From Spongiibacteraceae bacterium (lineage in GTDB: Bacteria; Pseudomonadota; Gammaproteobacteria; Pseudomonadales; Dasaniaceae): a DNA stretch of 64,000 nt. The notes beneath the pieces are model-generated. The model had not been told where the DNA came from. It saw only the letters and a program-made list of their open reading frames with translations, and searched no databases. The stretch covers positions 1 to 64,000 of the forward strand of contig JANQLG010000047.1 in NCBI GenBank assembly GCA_028280715.1, read 5' to 3'. Position numbers and translations under genes: made by a program. This document shows, piece by piece, positions 8,640 through 19,566 of this stretch (the stretch's first letter is position 1; each line of letters begins with the position of its first letter).

Positions 8640-9764
8640 CTATTGTTTTGCTATTGCCATTGGTTTTTGGGCAATAATTTCTCCATGTTTCACGTGAAAC
8701 ATGGAGACTTCTTGTTTGTCGGGCCAGCATTCCAAAGTATCAGCTGCATCCACACACGTAATAAATACTTGGCAACCTAGCTCATCAAGCAGGCCGCACA
8801 ACTGTTGCCTTCTTTCGGTATCGAGTTCAGAAGGTAAATCATCTAACAGAAAAACACTTTGCTTGCCTGTTAATTGGGACAGTAAATAGCCCTGAGATAC
8901 TCTTAGAGCACATATGAGCATTTTCTGCTGCCCGCGAGATAGTATGTCAGCAGCATTGCTTCCTTTATAACGTATTTTTAAATCTGCCCGCTGAGGCCCA
9001 TATAACGTGTGCCCCTGTTCTTTTTCTCGCTGTTGCTGGACTGCAAATACATCGGATAGATGTTGATCCTTGTCCCAACCTCGGTAATAACTCAAACTTA
9101 TTCCATCAAGCTTAATTAGCTTACCTAGCGTCAATTCAAATATCGGAATTAACTGCTCTAGATAGCGCTTGCGATAGCCATCAATTTCGTCGCCAAGCCT
9201 TGCCAGCTCTGAGGTCCAGACCATTAATTGCTGGTCGTCGATTCTACCATGTCGTAGCAAACTATTCCGTTGTTTTAAGCATCGTTTGGCGCTTTTCCAG
9301 GCTTGATGGAAACGATGTTCCACGTGAAACACTCCCCAATCCAGAAACTCTCGCCTATTCGTTGGGCCGCCTTCTAGTAACTTGAATGTATCCGAATAAA
9401 TAACTTGTAATGGCAGATTCTCAGCTAAAGATGCTGAAGAACTTAACGACTGCCCCGCTACACGTATAGTAGCTGTCTTACTGTCCGACTTATGTCGCTC
9501 AACACCTACGGGCTGATAACCTCTCTCTTCTAAATTAATCTCCCCAAATGCTAAACAGCTGTCTTCATCATGGTTTATTAGGGGTTTCAACTTGTGGCTT
9601 CGAAAGGAACGGGCAGAGGAGAGGAGATGTATTGATTCAAGAATACTAGTTTTGCCAGCACCATTATCGCCATAGAAGACATTAACTCTGGAAAGTGATG
9701 ATAAAGAAGCGTGCTTTAGGTTTCGCACTCCTCGTATATCAAGCCTTCTAATGACTACTGTCAC
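8640..9764 (-). CDS. recF: DNA replication and repair protein RecF
   Basis: A 374-residue SMC-like ATPase that helps load RecA at gapped DNA and acts in replication fork repair. Walker A GDNGAGKTS is at 32-40. The ABC signature LSRGQQK and Walker B VFLLDDLPSELD lie in the C-terminal third. Length is typical (about 360). It stands between dnaN and gyrB as in most gammaproteobacteria. Unusually, two parS-like palindromes are embedded in its coding sequence and force the peptides MFHVKH (near the C-terminus) and VFHVEH (mid-protein). Confidence 0.97.
   Translation of the reverse strand: MTVVIRRLDIRGVRNLKHASLSSLSRVNVFYGDNGAGKTSILESIHLLSSARSFRSHKLKPLINHDEDSCLAFGEINLEERGYQPVGVERHKSDSKTATIRVAGQSLSSSASLAENLPLQVIYSDTFKLLEGGPTNRREFLDWGVFHVEHRFHQAWKSAKRCLKQRNSLLRHGRIDDQQLMVWTSELARLGDEIDGYRKRYLEQLIPIFELTLGKLIKLDGISLSYYRGWDKDQHLSDVFAVQQQREKEQGHTLYGPQRADLKIRYKGSNAADILSRGQQKMLICALRVSQGYLLSQLTGKQSVFLLDDLPSELDTERRQQLCGLLDELGCQVFITCVDAADTLECWPDKQEVSMFHVKHGEIIAQKPMAIAKQ
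8681..8706. promoter_or_regulatory. parS site 1 (perfect consensus, extended palindrome)
   Basis: Bases 8686-8701 read TGTTTCACGTGAAACA, the exact consensus centromere site bound by chromosomal ParB. The palindrome extends by CTCCA on the left and TGGAG on the right, giving 26 bases of perfect symmetry. It lies in the 3' end of recF, about 12.5 kb from the parB gene, whose product should nucleate on it. Confidence 0.95.
9316..9331. promoter_or_regulatory. parS site 2 (one mismatch)
   Basis: The sequence TGTTCCACGTGAAACA differs from the consensus parS by one base (C for T at position 5). The invariant CACGTG core is kept. It is inside recF, 630 bases from the perfect site. Variants with C at this position are known among Pseudomonas parS sites. 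Confidence 0.85.
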
Positions 9765-10941: not shown

Positions 10942-12441
10942 TTAGGTTGTTAATGAGCGTAGCAGATTCTTGCGATCTTCCCGGATATCTGCGTCTGACT
11001 CTTCCAATTCTTTAATCTTTCTACAGGCATGTAGTACAGTTGTATGGTCGCGACCACCAAAACTTTCTCCTATCTCTGGCAAGCTGTGGTTGGTCAACTC
11101 CTTTGCCAATGCCATAGCAACCTGACGCGGCCTTGCAACGGAACGGCTTCTGCGCTTTGACATCATGTCAGAGATTTTGATTTTGTAATACTCTGCTACT
11201 GTTTTCTGGATATTCTCCAAACTAACTTGCTTATCCTGCAGAGCCAGCAAATCCTTTAGTGATTCTTTTATCAATGAAATATCGATTGCACGGCCTGTAA
11301 AGTGAGCACTCGCTATCACTCTCTTTAATGCGCCTTCAAGTTCACGAACGTTTGAGCGAATTCTCTGAGCAACAAAGAAGGCTGCATCCGCAGGCAACGT
11401 TATATTCGCCTGGTCAGCTTTTTTCATCAGGATGGCTACACGGGTCTCTAACTCAGGTGGCTCTACCGCCACGGTTAGCCCCCAGCCAAAACGCGACTTC
11501 AGACGCTCTTCTAAGCCATTGATTTCCTTAGGATATCTATCACAAGTCAAGATCATTTGCTGACCACCTTCCAGCAAGGCATTGAAGGTGTGAAAGAACT
11601 CTTCCTGCGACCGTTCTTTACCAGCAAAAAACTGAATATCATCGATTAACAAAGCATCAACCGAGCGGTAATAACGTTTGAACTCATTGATGGCATTGAG
11701 CTGTAACGCCTTTACCATATCAGCAACAAAACGCTCGGAATGCAGATACACAACTTTAGCTTCAGGATTTTGTTGCAGCAAAGAGTTACCAACCGCATGC
11801 ATTAAATGTGTTTTACCCAGACCAACACCACCATAAAGAAATAATGGGTTATAGGCACCACCTGCATTTTCAGCCACCTGCATAGAAGCGGCACGAGCCA
11901 ATTGGTTCGATTTACCTTCAACGAAGGTATCAAAGGTATAATTTTCGATCAAAAAACTGTTGTGCTTAATAGAACCTTCTACCTCAACTTTTCTTGAAGC
12001 CGGGGAAGTTACGTTTATCGATGAAGTAATGGCTATTTCTTTGGGCTTTGATACCGGCGATAGCCCTTCGCCGTCAGTATCTTTTATAGAGGAAGATATA
12101 GAGCGTGCTTCGATCTCTCTGCGTTCTGCTAAATTAATCCGAGAAGTATTAGTGTTGGAACTGGAACCAGAATTCGGCTTACGACCAATCTCTAACGATA
12201 TATCAATACCCATATCAGGTGACAACTCACTGACAATCTCAATAATACGCTCAAGAAATTTATCATTTACCCAATCTTTGACAAAGCGATTGGGAGCAAG
12301 CAGCTTCAGCTGCCCACTACTATTGCCTGTTTTGGCAATCTCAGCCTGTAAAGGTCGTATCCAGGTATTAAACTGCTGTGATGGCAATTCATCCTGCAGA
12401 CAGTGAATACATTGTTGCCAGGTAAGCTCAGGCAAGGGCAT
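10942..12441 (-). CDS. dnaA: chromosomal replication initiator DnaA
   Basis: DnaA binds DnaA boxes and opens the origin. Domain I begins [28 protein letters not shown]. Domain II is a Ser-rich linker. The AAA+ domain III has Walker [11 protein letters not shown] and Walker [11 protein letters not shown]. Domain IV ends with the DnaA-box-binding signature [16 protein letters not shown] chose the ATG at 12441 (499 residues), because the only other start is a TTG two codons upstream at 12447 with no better ribosome site. Minus strand, first gene of the dnaA-dnaN-recF-gyrB run. Confidence 0.96.
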
Positions 12442-13081
12442 CCCCAATAAAATAGATGTGCTTATAGTTGCTGTTCTTTATATGTTCTTAAATAAACAAT
12501 AAATGCTGTCGCTAAATCTTTACTGCGCTTATCCAGATAGATGCTCTGGGTAGAAGTTGCCGGTTCTCACGTTAATATTCTAATTTTCTCAGCAATAGTT
12601 TTTCTTAAATACTTGTGCCTAAGCCTAAATTTAAGAATCCTAATAATCATTGCTGTTCGTAGAACCAGCATCGACAGTAGCTGTGCATTGTACTCGCAGA
12701 ATTCTGACTTATCCACAGAAAAAGACAACTATTTTAAAAACCTTTACAGTAATGATTAGTTTTTAATAATCAGTAAGTTACATAATTATTGGTTATCGTA
12801 ATAAGAAATTTTTCCAGAGAAACAAGAATTGTGGATAACCAATAAAATTAGCTGTGGATAACCTATGCGTTAATTGTAAAAATTTATGAATAAGCACTTT
12901 TCTCTGCTCGAAAAGTCTTTCTTCATTTATATAGGTAAAATCATCGCCCGAATATCCAAGAAACGAATTGCTATTATTAGCCAAATTCTCTAGAATTCGC
13001 GGTCCAAAATTACACGGGTGGAAGTCTTACGGACTTTTACCTGGCAGAGATCCAGTTATTTAAATATCGGAATTTTTTGTC
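12442..13081. other. dnaA-rpmH intergenic region with DnaA boxes (origin candidate 1)
   Basis: This 640-base AT-rich gap holds three perfect DnaA boxes: TTATCCACA at 12709-12717, and TGTGGATAA at 12830-12838 and 12853-12861. A near-match, TTATCCAGA, lies at 12529-12537 close to dnaA. A/T-rich stretches at 12720-12830 could serve as an unwinding element. Pseudomonas-type origins lie in exactly this position. The boxes may instead mainly autoregulate dnaA, because strand composition favours the mnmE-mnmG gap as the origin. Confidence 0.6.
12968..12996 (+). promoter_or_regulatory. rpmH-rnpA promoter
   Basis: TTGCTA (12968-12973) and TAGAAT (12991-12996) are separated by 17 bases and fit a sigma70 promoter about 85 bases before rpmH. 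A small hairpin (AAGTC-TTAC-GGACTT) follows in the leader. Confidence 0.6.
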
Positions 13082-15696: not shown

Positions 15697-17106
15697 ATGG
15701 CCACGCTTGATACTGATACCATTGCTGCCATAGCTACGGCACCAGGCCGAGGTGGTATTGGTATTATTCGAGTATCTGGCCCTAACACTAAATCTATATC
15801 TCAATCTATTACACAAACTGTTCTAAACCCCAGATACGCACATTATGGCGATTTTTTTGAAACCGAAAACAACATAAAAAAATCGTTAGATAGTGGAATT
15901 GCTATTTTTTTCCCGGGTCCACATTCTTTCACTGGCGAAGATGTACTAGAAATACAGGCTCATGGTGGGCCTGTTTTACTTGATTTATTGCTAACAGAAA
16001 TTATTAGCTGCGGCGCAAGATTAGCTCGTCCCGGTGAATTTTCTGAGCGCGCTTTTTTAAATAACAAAATTGATTTAGCACAAGCTGAAGCGATAGCCGA
16101 TCTAATTGACAGTGTGTCAGAACAATCGGCAAGGAATGCCTTTCGATCACTTCAAGGTGAGTTCAGTAAAAAAATTCAAACATTAATCGATGCTTTGATA
16201 GATCTTCGCATGTATGTCGAAGCGGCTATTGATTTCCCGGAAGAAGAAATCGACTTCCTCGCTGACAGTAAAGTCAGTAACGACCTGAAAGCCATTCAAG
16301 AAAAACTGCAAGAGGTTTTCACCCAAGCAAAACAAGGCGCATTGCTCCAGGAAGGTATGACGGTGGTAATTGCTGGTAAACCCAATGCCGGAAAATCCAG
16401 CCTGTTAAATGCACTCTCAGGAAAAGACAGTGCTATCGTAACGCAAATCGAAGGAACTACACGTGATGTATTGAGGGAAACTATTCAAATCGATGGTATG
16501 CCATTGCATATTGTCGATACCGCTGGTTTAAGAGAAAGCCCCGATATCGTCGAAAAAGAAGGTATTCGGCGCGCCTGGAATGAAATTGAAAATGCCGACC
16601 GAATATTGCTAGTGGTCGATAGCAATGAGGAAAAGGAAAAAGTGGCAAGAGAGGGTGAGAAAGAACAGCCCACAGCAATGCTTGCCAAACTGGCACCCGA
16701 GCTAGGCAAACAACTCAACCGCCTGGACCATATTACAGTGATCCACAATAAATGTGATCTTGTGGCTAAGCCAGCCCAACTCATCGACAGTGATCCCACA
16801 CATATCCATCTCTCGGCAAAACAGGCTGAAGGTATTGAGCTGTTACAGGAACATCTTAAACAAGTGATGGGTTATAACGAGGCAGGAGAAGGCGGTTTTA
16901 CTGCCCGCCGTCGTCATTTATTAGCCTTGGAACAGGCTGAGCACTATCTAAATGCCGGTGAACGACAGCTAACCCAATATGGCGCCGGTGAATTACTGGC
17001 TGAAGATTTGCGGCTGTGCCAACAAGCCCTGGCTGAAATCACCGGTGAATTTACCCCCGATGATCTTCTCGGCAAAATTTTCTCCAGCTTTTGTATCGGA
17101 AAATAA
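15697..17106 (+). CDS. mnmE: tRNA modification GTPase MnmE
   Basis: A 469-residue GTPase that works with MnmG to make 5-carboxymethylaminomethyl-uridine at the tRNA wobble position. The N-terminal formyl-THF-binding domain has [15 protein letters not shown]. The G domain has G1 GKPNAGKSS at 227-235, TTRD at 254-257, DTAG at 274-277 and NKCD. The C-terminal FCIGK, with its essential Cys, is intact at 465-469. Sampled lines show less G than C on its coding strand, unlike mnmG next door. Confidence 0.97.
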
Positions 17107-17673
17107 GCATCAGATGAGTTTTACGCAGTAATTCAGCTTAAACACCCACTTTATTAAGGTTTTACCCACAGAAAGTTAAACAAATATCCATTTATTCTCG
17201 TTTTTAAGTAAGCATTTACTGTCGTCTGTGGATAAGCTGTTGAAGTAGGTGCATAACAGAACGTGGAAAAGCCATGCATAAAAACAGCCGTCATTGAGCT
17301 AAAACACACTGCTGTGTATATCCCTAGTTTTTATCCACGGCTTTATACGGCTATTTCAGCAGGCTTTACGGTTTTTATCCCTAACCTTATCTTTATAATA
17401 ACTCTTTGTTTTATTTATACTTTTTTCAGTTATCCCAAGATAATCAGTTGACCATTAATAACAATATCTATAGAAAACACTATATACATATATATAAATA
17501 ACTTTATATTTTAATTTCTCTAGTTAACGTTCTTTTTAACATTAAAAATAATTTCTTTTTCACTGAACAAATTTCAATCAGGTTTTGCTACATTTCGAAG
17601 GCTGACTTATAATCCCCGCCCTTTTCAAAACTTTTAGCCAATTTCTTTCAGTAAACGACTCATTGAGGTTAGC
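17107..17673. other. mnmE-mnmG intergenic region, probable oriC (origin candidate 2)
   Basis: A 567-base gap with no gene. It contains TGTGGATAA (17227-17235, perfect DnaA box), TTATCCACG (17331-17339, one mismatch), TTACCCACA (17162-17170, one mismatch) and weaker ones at 17375-17383 and 17430-17438. An A/T-rich tract with T-rich runs, at about 17385-17560, lies on the mnmG side and could be the DNA unwinding element. This order, boxes then unwinding element then mnmG, matches E. coli oriC, which is next to mnmG (gidA). G+C strand bias appears to switch here. Confidence 0.65.
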
Positions 17674-19566
17674 GTGAATTACCCAGAGCAGTTTGATGTC
17701 ATCGTTGTCGGTGGTGGCCATGCCGGCACTGAAGCGTGTTTAGCAGCTGCCCGGATGGGCTGCCGGGCACTGCTGCTCAGTCATAACGTGGATACTCTGG
17801 GTCAAATGTCCTGTAACCCGGCCATTGGTGGCATCGGTAAAAGTCATCTGGTAAAGGAAATTGACGCCTTAGGTGGCGCGATGGCCAAGGCCACTGATCT
17901 CGGTGGGATCCAGTTTCGTACCTTGAATGCCCGCAAAGGGCCAGCGGTGAGAGCGACACGGGCCCAAGCAGATCGAGCCTTGTACAAAGCAGCTATTCGT
18001 GAAATGCTGGAAAACCAACCTAATCTTTCCATTTTCCAACAGTCAGTTGATGACTTGATTGTTGAAGCTAACAAGGTCACGGGTGTTGTTACGCAAATGG
18101 GCCTGCGCTTTTTTGCTCCAACAGTCGTGTTGTGTACCGGCACTTTTCTGGGCGGAAAAATTCATATTGGTCTGGAAAACCACAGCGGTGGTCGCGCCGG
18201 TGACCCTCCTTCCATTGCGCTGGCCAATCGTCTGCGTGAATTGCCTTTCAATGTCGAGCGTTTAAAAACCGGTACACCGCCTCGCATCGATGCGCGTTCA
18301 GTCAATTTTGAATCGCTGGAGCAACAGTGGGGTGATAAGCCTGAACCGGTAATGTCCTTTTTGGGTTCAGTAGATCAGCACCCTGAACAAATGTGTTGCT
18401 GGATAACCCACACTAATGAAAAAACCCATGACATTATTCGCTCAGGTTTGGATCGCTCGCCCATGTATACCGGTGTGATCGATGGTGTTGGTCCGCGTTA
18501 CTGCCCGTCAGTTGAAGATAAAATTCATCGTTTTGCCGATAAAAGTTCGCACCAGGTATTTATCGAACCGGAAGGTTTGAAAACACATGAGCTTTATCCG
18601 AATGGGATTTCAACTAGCCTGCCCTTTGATGTGCAATTTGATTTAGTGCGTTCGATAAAAGGATTTGAAAACGCACATATCACACGTCCAGGTTATGCCA
18701 TTGAATATGATTTTTTTGATCCTCGCGATTTAAAATATTCCTTAGAAACTAAATTTATCGAAGGTCTATTTTTTGCCGGGCAGATTAACGGTACCACCGG
18801 TTATGAAGAAGCTGGCGCTCAAGGTTTATTAGCAGGTTTAAATGCTGCGCTAAAAGTACAGGAGAAAGAAGCTTGGTGTCCACGTCGCGATGAGGCCTAT
18901 ATTGGTGTGATGATTGATGACCTGATCAGTATGGGAACGATGGAACCCTATCGCATGTTTACATCGCGGGCTGAATACCGTTTGTTATTAAGAGAAGATA
19001 ATGCTGATTTGCGTCTAACTGAAAGGGGCAGAGAGTTGGGTTTAGTTGATGATCAACGTTGGCAGGTATTCAGTGAAAAACGTGAAGCGATAGAAAAAGA
19101 AACACAACGTTTGTCCACTACTTGGATACAACCTGACACCGAACAGTCAAACATAGTTAATTCGTTAGTAGATAAACCGCTTACACGTGAATACAGTTTA
19201 TTGGATTTGGTGAAACGCCCTGAATTAAATTATTCCGCTGTTGCTTCGCTAAAAGGTGAAGCCATTACTGATTCAGCGGTTGCAGAACAGGTTGAAATTC
19301 AAATCAAGTACTCCGGTTATATCGATCGCCAATCGGAAGAAATTGAACGTTTAAGACGTTATGAAAATACCTTGATTCCCGATGAATTTGATTACCAATC
19401 GGTGGAAGGTCTTTCCAATGAAGTGAAACAAAAACTCAGTGATGCCAGACCAGAAACCTTAGCGCGTGCTTCACGTGTTCCCGGTGTTACACCGGCAGCC
19501 ATTTCATTATTGCTAATATTTTTAAAAAAACATGGCGCTCTGGAACGACTAAATCAAAGCGCATGA
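17674..19566 (+). CDS. mnmG: tRNA uridine-5-carboxymethylaminomethyl modification enzyme MnmG
   Basis: A 630-residue FAD protein, partner of MnmE in wobble uridine modification. The dinucleotide-binding motif GGGHAGTEA is at 13-21. The family signatures [12 protein letters not shown] and [17 protein letters not shown] are present. Length matches GidA (about 629). The start is GTG at 17674 with GAGG six bases upstream. It is the first gene rightward of the candidate origin and leads into rsmG, 20 bases on. Confidence 0.98.

Follow-up and report, generated by a model that had tools for sequence, protein, structure and literature searches.

The DNA analyzed here, a 64-kb stretch from a Spongiibacteraceae bacterium (hereafter the window), carries DnaA boxes in two intergenic gaps, one between dnaA and rpmH and one between mnmE and mnmG, and the question is which of these gaps is the chromosomal origin of replication. 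In Escherichia coli, oriC has its unwinding element on the mnmG side, has an IHF site beside box R1, and is under SeqA/Dam control. Pseudomonas origins are placed at dnaA–rpmH; these origins were reportedly studied by Yee and Smith in 1990 and by Jiang et al. in 2006. The dnaA gene cluster has long been assumed to mark the origin, as stated in PMC4285127. In the present case, the mnmE–mnmG gap is very probably the working origin (oriC), judging from GC skew, DnaA boxes, duplex stability, and a conserved layout, all of which are read from sequence. For this Spongiibacteraceae-type marine bacterium, the origin would then be set at mnmG and not beside dnaA; it is an origin of an ordinary kind, in a place that a dnaA-centered rule would miss.

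Genomic context of the two gaps

Contig C28 of a draft genome (G000; 3.83 Mb, 50 contigs, and 98% complete) begins with the window; by MnmG, the nearest named relatives are MAGs of Oceanicoccus (85%) and a strain of Dasania (84%). The genes gyrB, recF, dnaN, and dnaA, all on the minus strand, are followed by the first gap; then come rpmH, rnpA, yidC, and mnmE, all transcribed rightward, the second gap, and mnmG, rsmG, parA, and parB. With gene identities assigned by Pfam, mnmE ends at 17106, and mnmG starts at 17674 with GTG. The distance between the two gaps is 4.3 kb. An Rfam scan of the 64-kb window gave no matches, and in a DNA similarity search against plasmid collections, the matches listed (5 of 42 records) involved mnmG coding DNA only. 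Two parS-like sites lie in recF, to the left of the proposed origin, and parA and parB lie to its right (Table 1); the 16-mer TGTTNCACGTGAAACA is what we take to be the parS consensus.

DnaA boxes and the weakest duplex

The preliminary description had listed one perfect DnaA box, two boxes with one mismatch, and weaker ones over 17162–17438, followed by an AT-rich tract and then mnmG. The span proved to be exact, and the boxes are enriched above chance. That description did not mention the trio-like run behind the last box, the lack of GATC, the mnmG promoter-like site, or the two parS-like sites. The 567-bp gap contains three boxes with at most one mismatch, compared with a mean of 0.225 in 2000 mononucleotide shuffles (P = 0.001); a Poisson estimate for the same count (λ = 0.14) gives P = 0.0004. 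When up to two mismatches are allowed, eight boxes are observed versus 2.58 expected (P = 0.004), the two-mismatch boxes being located at 17248, 17262, 17313, 17375, and 17430–17438. As judged by eye from alignments, the perfect box at 17227 has a counterpart with at most one mismatch in 8 of the 10 relatives that cover this place, and relatives also have box-like sequence aligned with the box at 17331.

The AT-rich tract is likewise as described, with an AT content of 0.80 to 0.86 in 50-bp windows covering 17461–17570. Nearest-neighbor energies identify the 100 bp starting at 17454 as the weakest duplex of the 64 kb (0 of 63,900 windows were weaker). Downstream of this element, a promoter scan, which overall yielded sites no more numerous than in shuffles, picked up a promoter-like site for mnmG, the TATAAT column of which is largely conserved in relatives. 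Elsewhere in the genome, away from the origin, G000:C41:99272-99294 contains two perfect DnaA boxes in opposite orientation with starts 14 bp apart, possibly a DnaA titration or regulation site.

Table 1. Features of the two gaps and their surroundings (positions in the window)
Feature	Position	Strand	Basis or remark
parS-like 16-mer, perfect to consensus TGTTNCACGTGAAACA	8686–8701		inside recF
parS-like 16-mer, perfect on + strand	9316–9331		inside recF
dnaA (DnaA1), initiator	10942–12447	−	family models
Second DnaA-box cluster, dnaA–rpmH gap	12448–13081		boxes 12529, 12709, 12830, 12853
mnmE–mnmG intergenic gap, proposed oriC	17107–17673		sequence, ORFs, cumulative GC-skew minimum 17661
DnaA box TTACCCACA, 1 mismatch	17162–17170	+	read from sequence
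DnaA box TTATCCACA, perfect	17227–17235	−	read from sequence
DnaA box TTATCCACG, 1 mismatch	17331–17339	+	read from sequence
IHF-like site, 1 mismatch	17399–17411	−	starts 31 nt before box 17430
R1-position DnaA box TTATCCCAA, 2 mismatches	17430–17438	+	sequence; 1–3 mismatches in relatives
DnaA-trio-like run GAC CAT TAA TAA CAA TAT	17450–17467	+	after last box; 2 TAA/TAG trios
Putative unwinding element, weakest 100-bp duplex of the 64 kb	17454–17553		nearest-neighbor energies
mnmG promoter-like site TTGCTA-17-TATAAT	17585–17613	+	promoter scan

GC skew at the two gaps

Because rpmH, rnpA, yidC, and mnmE are all transcribed rightward, they would be leading-strand genes if replication started at dnaA–rpmH and lagging-strand genes if it started at mnmE–mnmG. 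Skew at fourfold-degenerate sites, in the coding sense, is −0.33 for rnpA (24 sites only), −0.42 for yidC, and −0.33 for mnmE, with values between −0.12 and +0.14 for the flanking gyrB, recF, dnaN, dnaA, mnmG, rsmG, parA, and parB. Among the window's ORFs at 23 to 58 kb, a value of −0.33 is reached by 0 of 19 leading and 2 of 9 lagging ORFs, the means being −0.09 for the leading and −0.19 for the nine lagging ORFs, a modest gap. The cumulative GC skew, calculated over the first 40 kb, has its minimum at 17661, a position to be read with the caution that the pyrimidine-rich mnmG leader draws cumulative minima to the start codon itself. The minimum and the lagging-strand skew of rnpA, yidC, and mnmE therefore argue for an origin to the right of mnmE, not at dnaA–rpmH.

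The whole-chromosome skew switch was sampled not in the window's own draft genome but in a closed congeneric genome (G004; 4,472,079 bp), from which 14 stretches of 20 kb were taken in addition to the locus. On the low-coordinate side, all seven sampled stretches have negative skew, out to −2.15 Mb, the weakest of them (L126) having 4 of 10 two-kb bins positive. The six stretches sampled in the opposite direction are all positive as far as +2.01 Mb; at +2.19 Mb, the skew turns negative again. These samples fit one origin no more than about 110 kb from the locus, with the terminus opposite. In 13 of the 14 stretches, the mean fourfold-site skew is −0.070 for leading ORFs (n = 133, SD 0.151) and −0.246 for lagging ORFs (n = 60, SD 0.181). 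The mnmE gene of this genome (−0.38) lies below 97% of leading ORFs; its yidC gene (−0.23) is not decisive, since 14% of leading ORFs are as low. The proposal that the mnmE–mnmG gap is the working origin, put forward in the preliminary description, thus gains support from the sign change at the locus in G004 and from the minimum at 17661.

Among eight close relatives, including the window, the cumulative minimum falls within the gap for four only; it lies in mnmE for L111 and L113, in mnmG for L114, and in yidC for L004. The Pseudomonadaceae had been considered as a clean control group in the skew comparison and were set aside, their values being mixed (about −0.01 to −0.03 for L010, L011, and L017, −0.23 for L009, and −0.11 for L166).

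A conserved box–spacer–trio module

In E. coli oriC, a perfect box TTATCCACA, which we take to be the one named R1, is followed by 14 nt and then by TAATAA toward mnmG, and the box–spacer–trio layout of the window agrees with this in position and spacing (the reference used was NC_000913.3, 3925744–3925975). The box at the R1 position in the window, TTATCCCAA, nevertheless has two mismatches. The same arrangement is shared with the basal unwinding system (BUS), for which PMC8287927 gives the rule of a DnaA box with at most two mismatches, a spacer no longer than 16 nt, and three or more NAN triplets. The sequence at 17430–17467 follows this rule weakly, with two mismatches in the box and only two TAA/TAG triplets, compared with up to seven in close relatives. 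The rule is also loose: 53 of the 260 boxes with at most two mismatches in the window are followed by at least three NAN triplets.

Twelve rows, including the near-identical pair G006 and L001, were anchored on the R1-position box as read from alignments. Eight of the 11 rows besides the window have three to seven TAA/TAG trios after the box, and the run in the window is shorter than in these eight. The remaining rows have one (G007), none (Litorirhabdus), and one (L005, which is probably misanchored). In 11 of the 12 rows, a sequence fitting what we take to be the IHF consensus starts at a distance of exactly 31 nt ahead of the R1-position box, perfect in seven and with one mismatch in four, including the window; such a fixed offset is partly expected, because the rows share descent. 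One-mismatch IHF-like sites are common (133 in the 64 kb), and the same scan recovered no site in E. coli's own oriC, which makes it a poor test of IHF binding. Binding of IHF near 17400 is thus presumed by analogy with E. coli. The layout common to the relatives consists of boxes, the IHF-like site, 31 nt, a box, about 14 nt, DnaA-trios, the AT-rich tract, and the mnmG promoter.

Regulation and a possible mechanism

The preliminary description had called the gap E. coli-like. This holds for its position next to mnmG, for the AT-rich unwinding element, which faces mnmG, and for the positions and spacing of the box–spacer–trio layout; it does not extend to GATC, which is missing from the gap, or to SeqA and Dam, neither of which was found in the genome. 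The E. coli origin has mioC on its other side and 12 GATC motifs between oriC and mnmG, whereas the window has mnmE on that side and no GATC in the 567-bp gap. On its own, the lack of GATC means little, because only about two would be expected in 567 bp (221 occur in the 64 kb), and the gaps of relatives contain between zero and three. Models for SeqA and Dam, both of which do find the E. coli proteins, gave no match in the 98% complete genome, so, taken together with the GATC-free gap, the sequestration switch of E. coli appears to be missing. Genes for Hda and IHF-alpha are present in G000. With an E. coli-like layout and apparently neither Dam nor SeqA, the timing of initiation must be set in another way.

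The gammaBOriS set of gammaproteobacterial oriC sequences, as reported in PMC7174414, has a DnaA-trio consensus TAATAATAA and GATC motifs restricted to taxa with Dam. Both features fit the present clade, and a GATC-free origin in a bacterium lacking Dam is, by that report, a known pattern. As to helicase loading, a DciA model (PF05258) gave no match in G000; absence of DciA is not claimed, because the model matches only 16 of 56 genomes of the order. Either the model is blind to these genomes, or their helicase loaders differ.

The enrichment of boxes, the weakest duplex, the skew switch, the conserved layout, and the lack of GATC and of Dam and SeqA matches were computed directly. The mechanism proposed next is modeled on E. 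coli and on the basal unwinding system as published. DnaA would bind the boxes at 17162–17339, and IHF would bend the DNA near 17400, bringing DnaA to the weak box at 17430. From there, DnaA would spread into the trio-like run at 17450–17467 and open the AT-rich element at 17454–17553, possibly assisted by transcription from the mnmG promoter-like site, after which forks would leave in both directions.

Two apparent placements of the unwinding module within the order

For an order-wide survey, 60 genomes were chosen from 145, spread over families, with up to 19.5 kb around mnmG (some stretches being shorter at contig ends). Together with six genomes of the family, nine named loci (of 80), and the window, this gave 76 stretches, of which 55 contain dnaA, rpmH, mnmE, and mnmG. 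A cumulative skew minimum was counted as being at mnmG if it fell between −1000 and +200 of the mnmG start and as being at dnaA–rpmH if it fell within 600 bp of the center of that gap. By these limits, 21 of the 76 stretches have the minimum at mnmG, and none of the 48 with a measurable dnaA–rpmH gap have it there; 14 of these 48 have it at mnmG, and in most surveyed stretches, it is at neither place. The comparison of the two gaps by skew minimum, proposed in the preliminary description, thus favors mnmE–mnmG, in the survey as in the window (17661). In two stretches, L135 and L139, about 5.2 kb separate mnmE from mnmG, the two candidate sites are more than 9 kb apart, and the minimum is still at mnmG. 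Such insertions were considered as a natural experiment and not used as general evidence, because, among the 17 stretches where mnmE and mnmG are more than 2 kb apart, only 4 have the minimum at mnmG.

The survey also covered the unwinding module, which was called strong if it had at least three TAA/TAG trios, a threshold set after a first look at the data. Boxes were allowed up to two mismatches, and G004, G008, and L004 were missed for this reason. Among the 48 genomes with both gaps measured, a strong module is found at mnmG only in 14, at dnaA–rpmH only in 4, at both in none, and at neither in 30, the window itself being one of these 30 at the three-trio threshold. Where a strong trio block exists (18 of 48), it thus occupies one placement and never both. 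In line with this split, the skew contrast of the middle genes has a mean of −0.198 in the mnmG group versus 0.00 in the dnaA–rpmH group (Mann–Whitney P = 0.0003) and −0.169 in the group with neither. In an MnmG tree, a single change, modestly supported (84), separates the 16 genomes with a strong module at mnmG (the 14 counted above and another 2 in which the dnaA gap was not measured) from the 4 that have it at dnaA–rpmH, 56 of the 76 rows being unlabeled.

Both origin placements appear to be present in the order, and the data point to, but do not prove, relocation of the unwinding module between the dnaA–rpmH and mnmG box clusters, which are 4–5 kb from each other in most cases. Two placements within one order make origin relocation directly testable. 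The four genomes L153, L175, L179, and L184 have a strong trio run at dnaA–rpmH and none at mnmG, the reverse of the 14 others.

The dnaA–rpmH box cluster and alternative readings

That dnaA lies beside a box cluster of its own, as had been described, is confirmed by the four boxes in the dnaA–rpmH gap (Table 1). Three are perfect and one has a single mismatch, so this gap has more perfect boxes than the mnmE–mnmG gap (three versus one). It is also the third-weakest duplex locus of the window and contains one six-trio run, located after a two-mismatch box. The spacing of the boxes is conserved among relatives; the box at 12709, the pair of minus-strand boxes that follows it, and an IHF consensus are largely conserved, the IHF consensus being perfect in several relatives. 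The box at 12709, on the plus strand, overlaps the first hexamer of a promoter-like site for dnaA (12715–12687, minus strand) from the same promoter scan, whose sites do not outnumber those in shuffles, and for this reason autoregulation is the simplest reading; the cluster is most likely the autoregulatory promoter region of dnaA. It is perhaps a retained, alternative, helper, or second origin.

Three other readings of the locus were weighed. One is a split origin, in which DnaA bound at dnaA–rpmH would loop or be handed over to the unwinding element at mnmE–mnmG, 4.3 kb away. In the family, each of the two clusters is conserved, boxes and IHF-like sites included, and split origins have been reported for Bacillus subtilis and Helicobacter pylori (PMC4403523). 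We regard this arrangement as unlikely: the promoter overlap makes autoregulation the simpler explanation of the dnaA–rpmH cluster, and in L135 and L139 the skew minimum stays at mnmG with the two sites more than 9 kb apart.

A working origin at dnaA–rpmH, as in the Pseudomonas class, with the mnmE–mnmG boxes as a relic, is less probable still, and we give it very little credence. It would account for the three perfect boxes, the AT-rich stretch, the conserved box spacing, and the IHF consensus in relatives, and in four other genomes of the order, a strong trio run is indeed located in this gap, with none at mnmG. Like Pseudomonas, the window has a conserved box cluster in this gap; unlike Pseudomonas, it has its skew minimum and its weakest duplex at mnmE–mnmG. 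An origin at dnaA–rpmH further predicts that rnpA, yidC, and mnmE are leading-strand genes, whereas in skew they resemble lagging genes more closely, and the cumulative minimum lies at dnaA–rpmH in none of the 48 stretches. That the boxes at mnmE–mnmG only regulate transcription of mnmG, the gap not being an origin, is extremely improbable: the promoter-like site with its largely conserved TATAAT would suit such a role, but the chromosomal skew switch, the lagging-strand skew of mnmE and yidC, the trio block, and the duplex minimum would all be left unexplained.

A second DnaA

The Hda search brought up a second dnaA-like gene in the draft genome, at G000:C50:24452-26170 on the minus strand (L194:4453-6171). 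Its product (DnaA2), 572 residues long, shares 61% identity with the DnaA of the window; against the DnaA equivalog model, it scores 581 bits (cutoff 343.9). Across 293 genomes of the order, strong matches to the DnaA C-terminal domain number two in G000 alone, one in 288, and none in 4; among 369 genomes of the class, only two others pass an E-value of 1e-190 when compared with DnaA2 (61% and 63% identity).

At the positions that we take to be functional, in E. coli numbering, the ATPase motifs and the arginine finger of DnaA2 are intact. Position 434, presumably a box contact in E. coli, is asparagine, compared with histidine in the other 50 of 51 rows, including E. coli and the window's DnaA; position 46, which we believe to be linked to helicase binding, is methionine. 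About 108 extra residues at the N terminus may be a worn second domain I; family models run on this extension gave no confirmation of domain I. In a tree, DnaA2 sits on a long branch outside the DnaA clade of the family, its exact placement having low support. A text search of the literature for second dnaA genes returned nothing relevant.

The neighbors of the gene do not form a dnaN–recF–gyrB cluster. Contamination was considered as its source and rejected, the tetranucleotide profile of the contig (0.60–0.68) being near the genome's own (0.64–0.70); for context, one of the genome's own pieces scores 0.40, and the same-genus G004 scores 0.63 to 0.65. A contaminant from the same genus is possible, and its DnaA would be expected to be nearer 78% identical. 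Conceivably, two DnaA proteins and two box clusters could together govern replication start, with DnaA2 working one cluster or tuning the other, a scheme that we consider unlikely. If true, two-DnaA control could explain the shorter trio run of the window at the mnmG origin. The relocation pattern and the second DnaA are the aspects that merit follow-up. In G007, three matches to the DnaA C-terminal domain at the cutoff (31.5 bits) were seen in short frames at C2:107410, 336632, and 338871; these are perhaps transposon-related.
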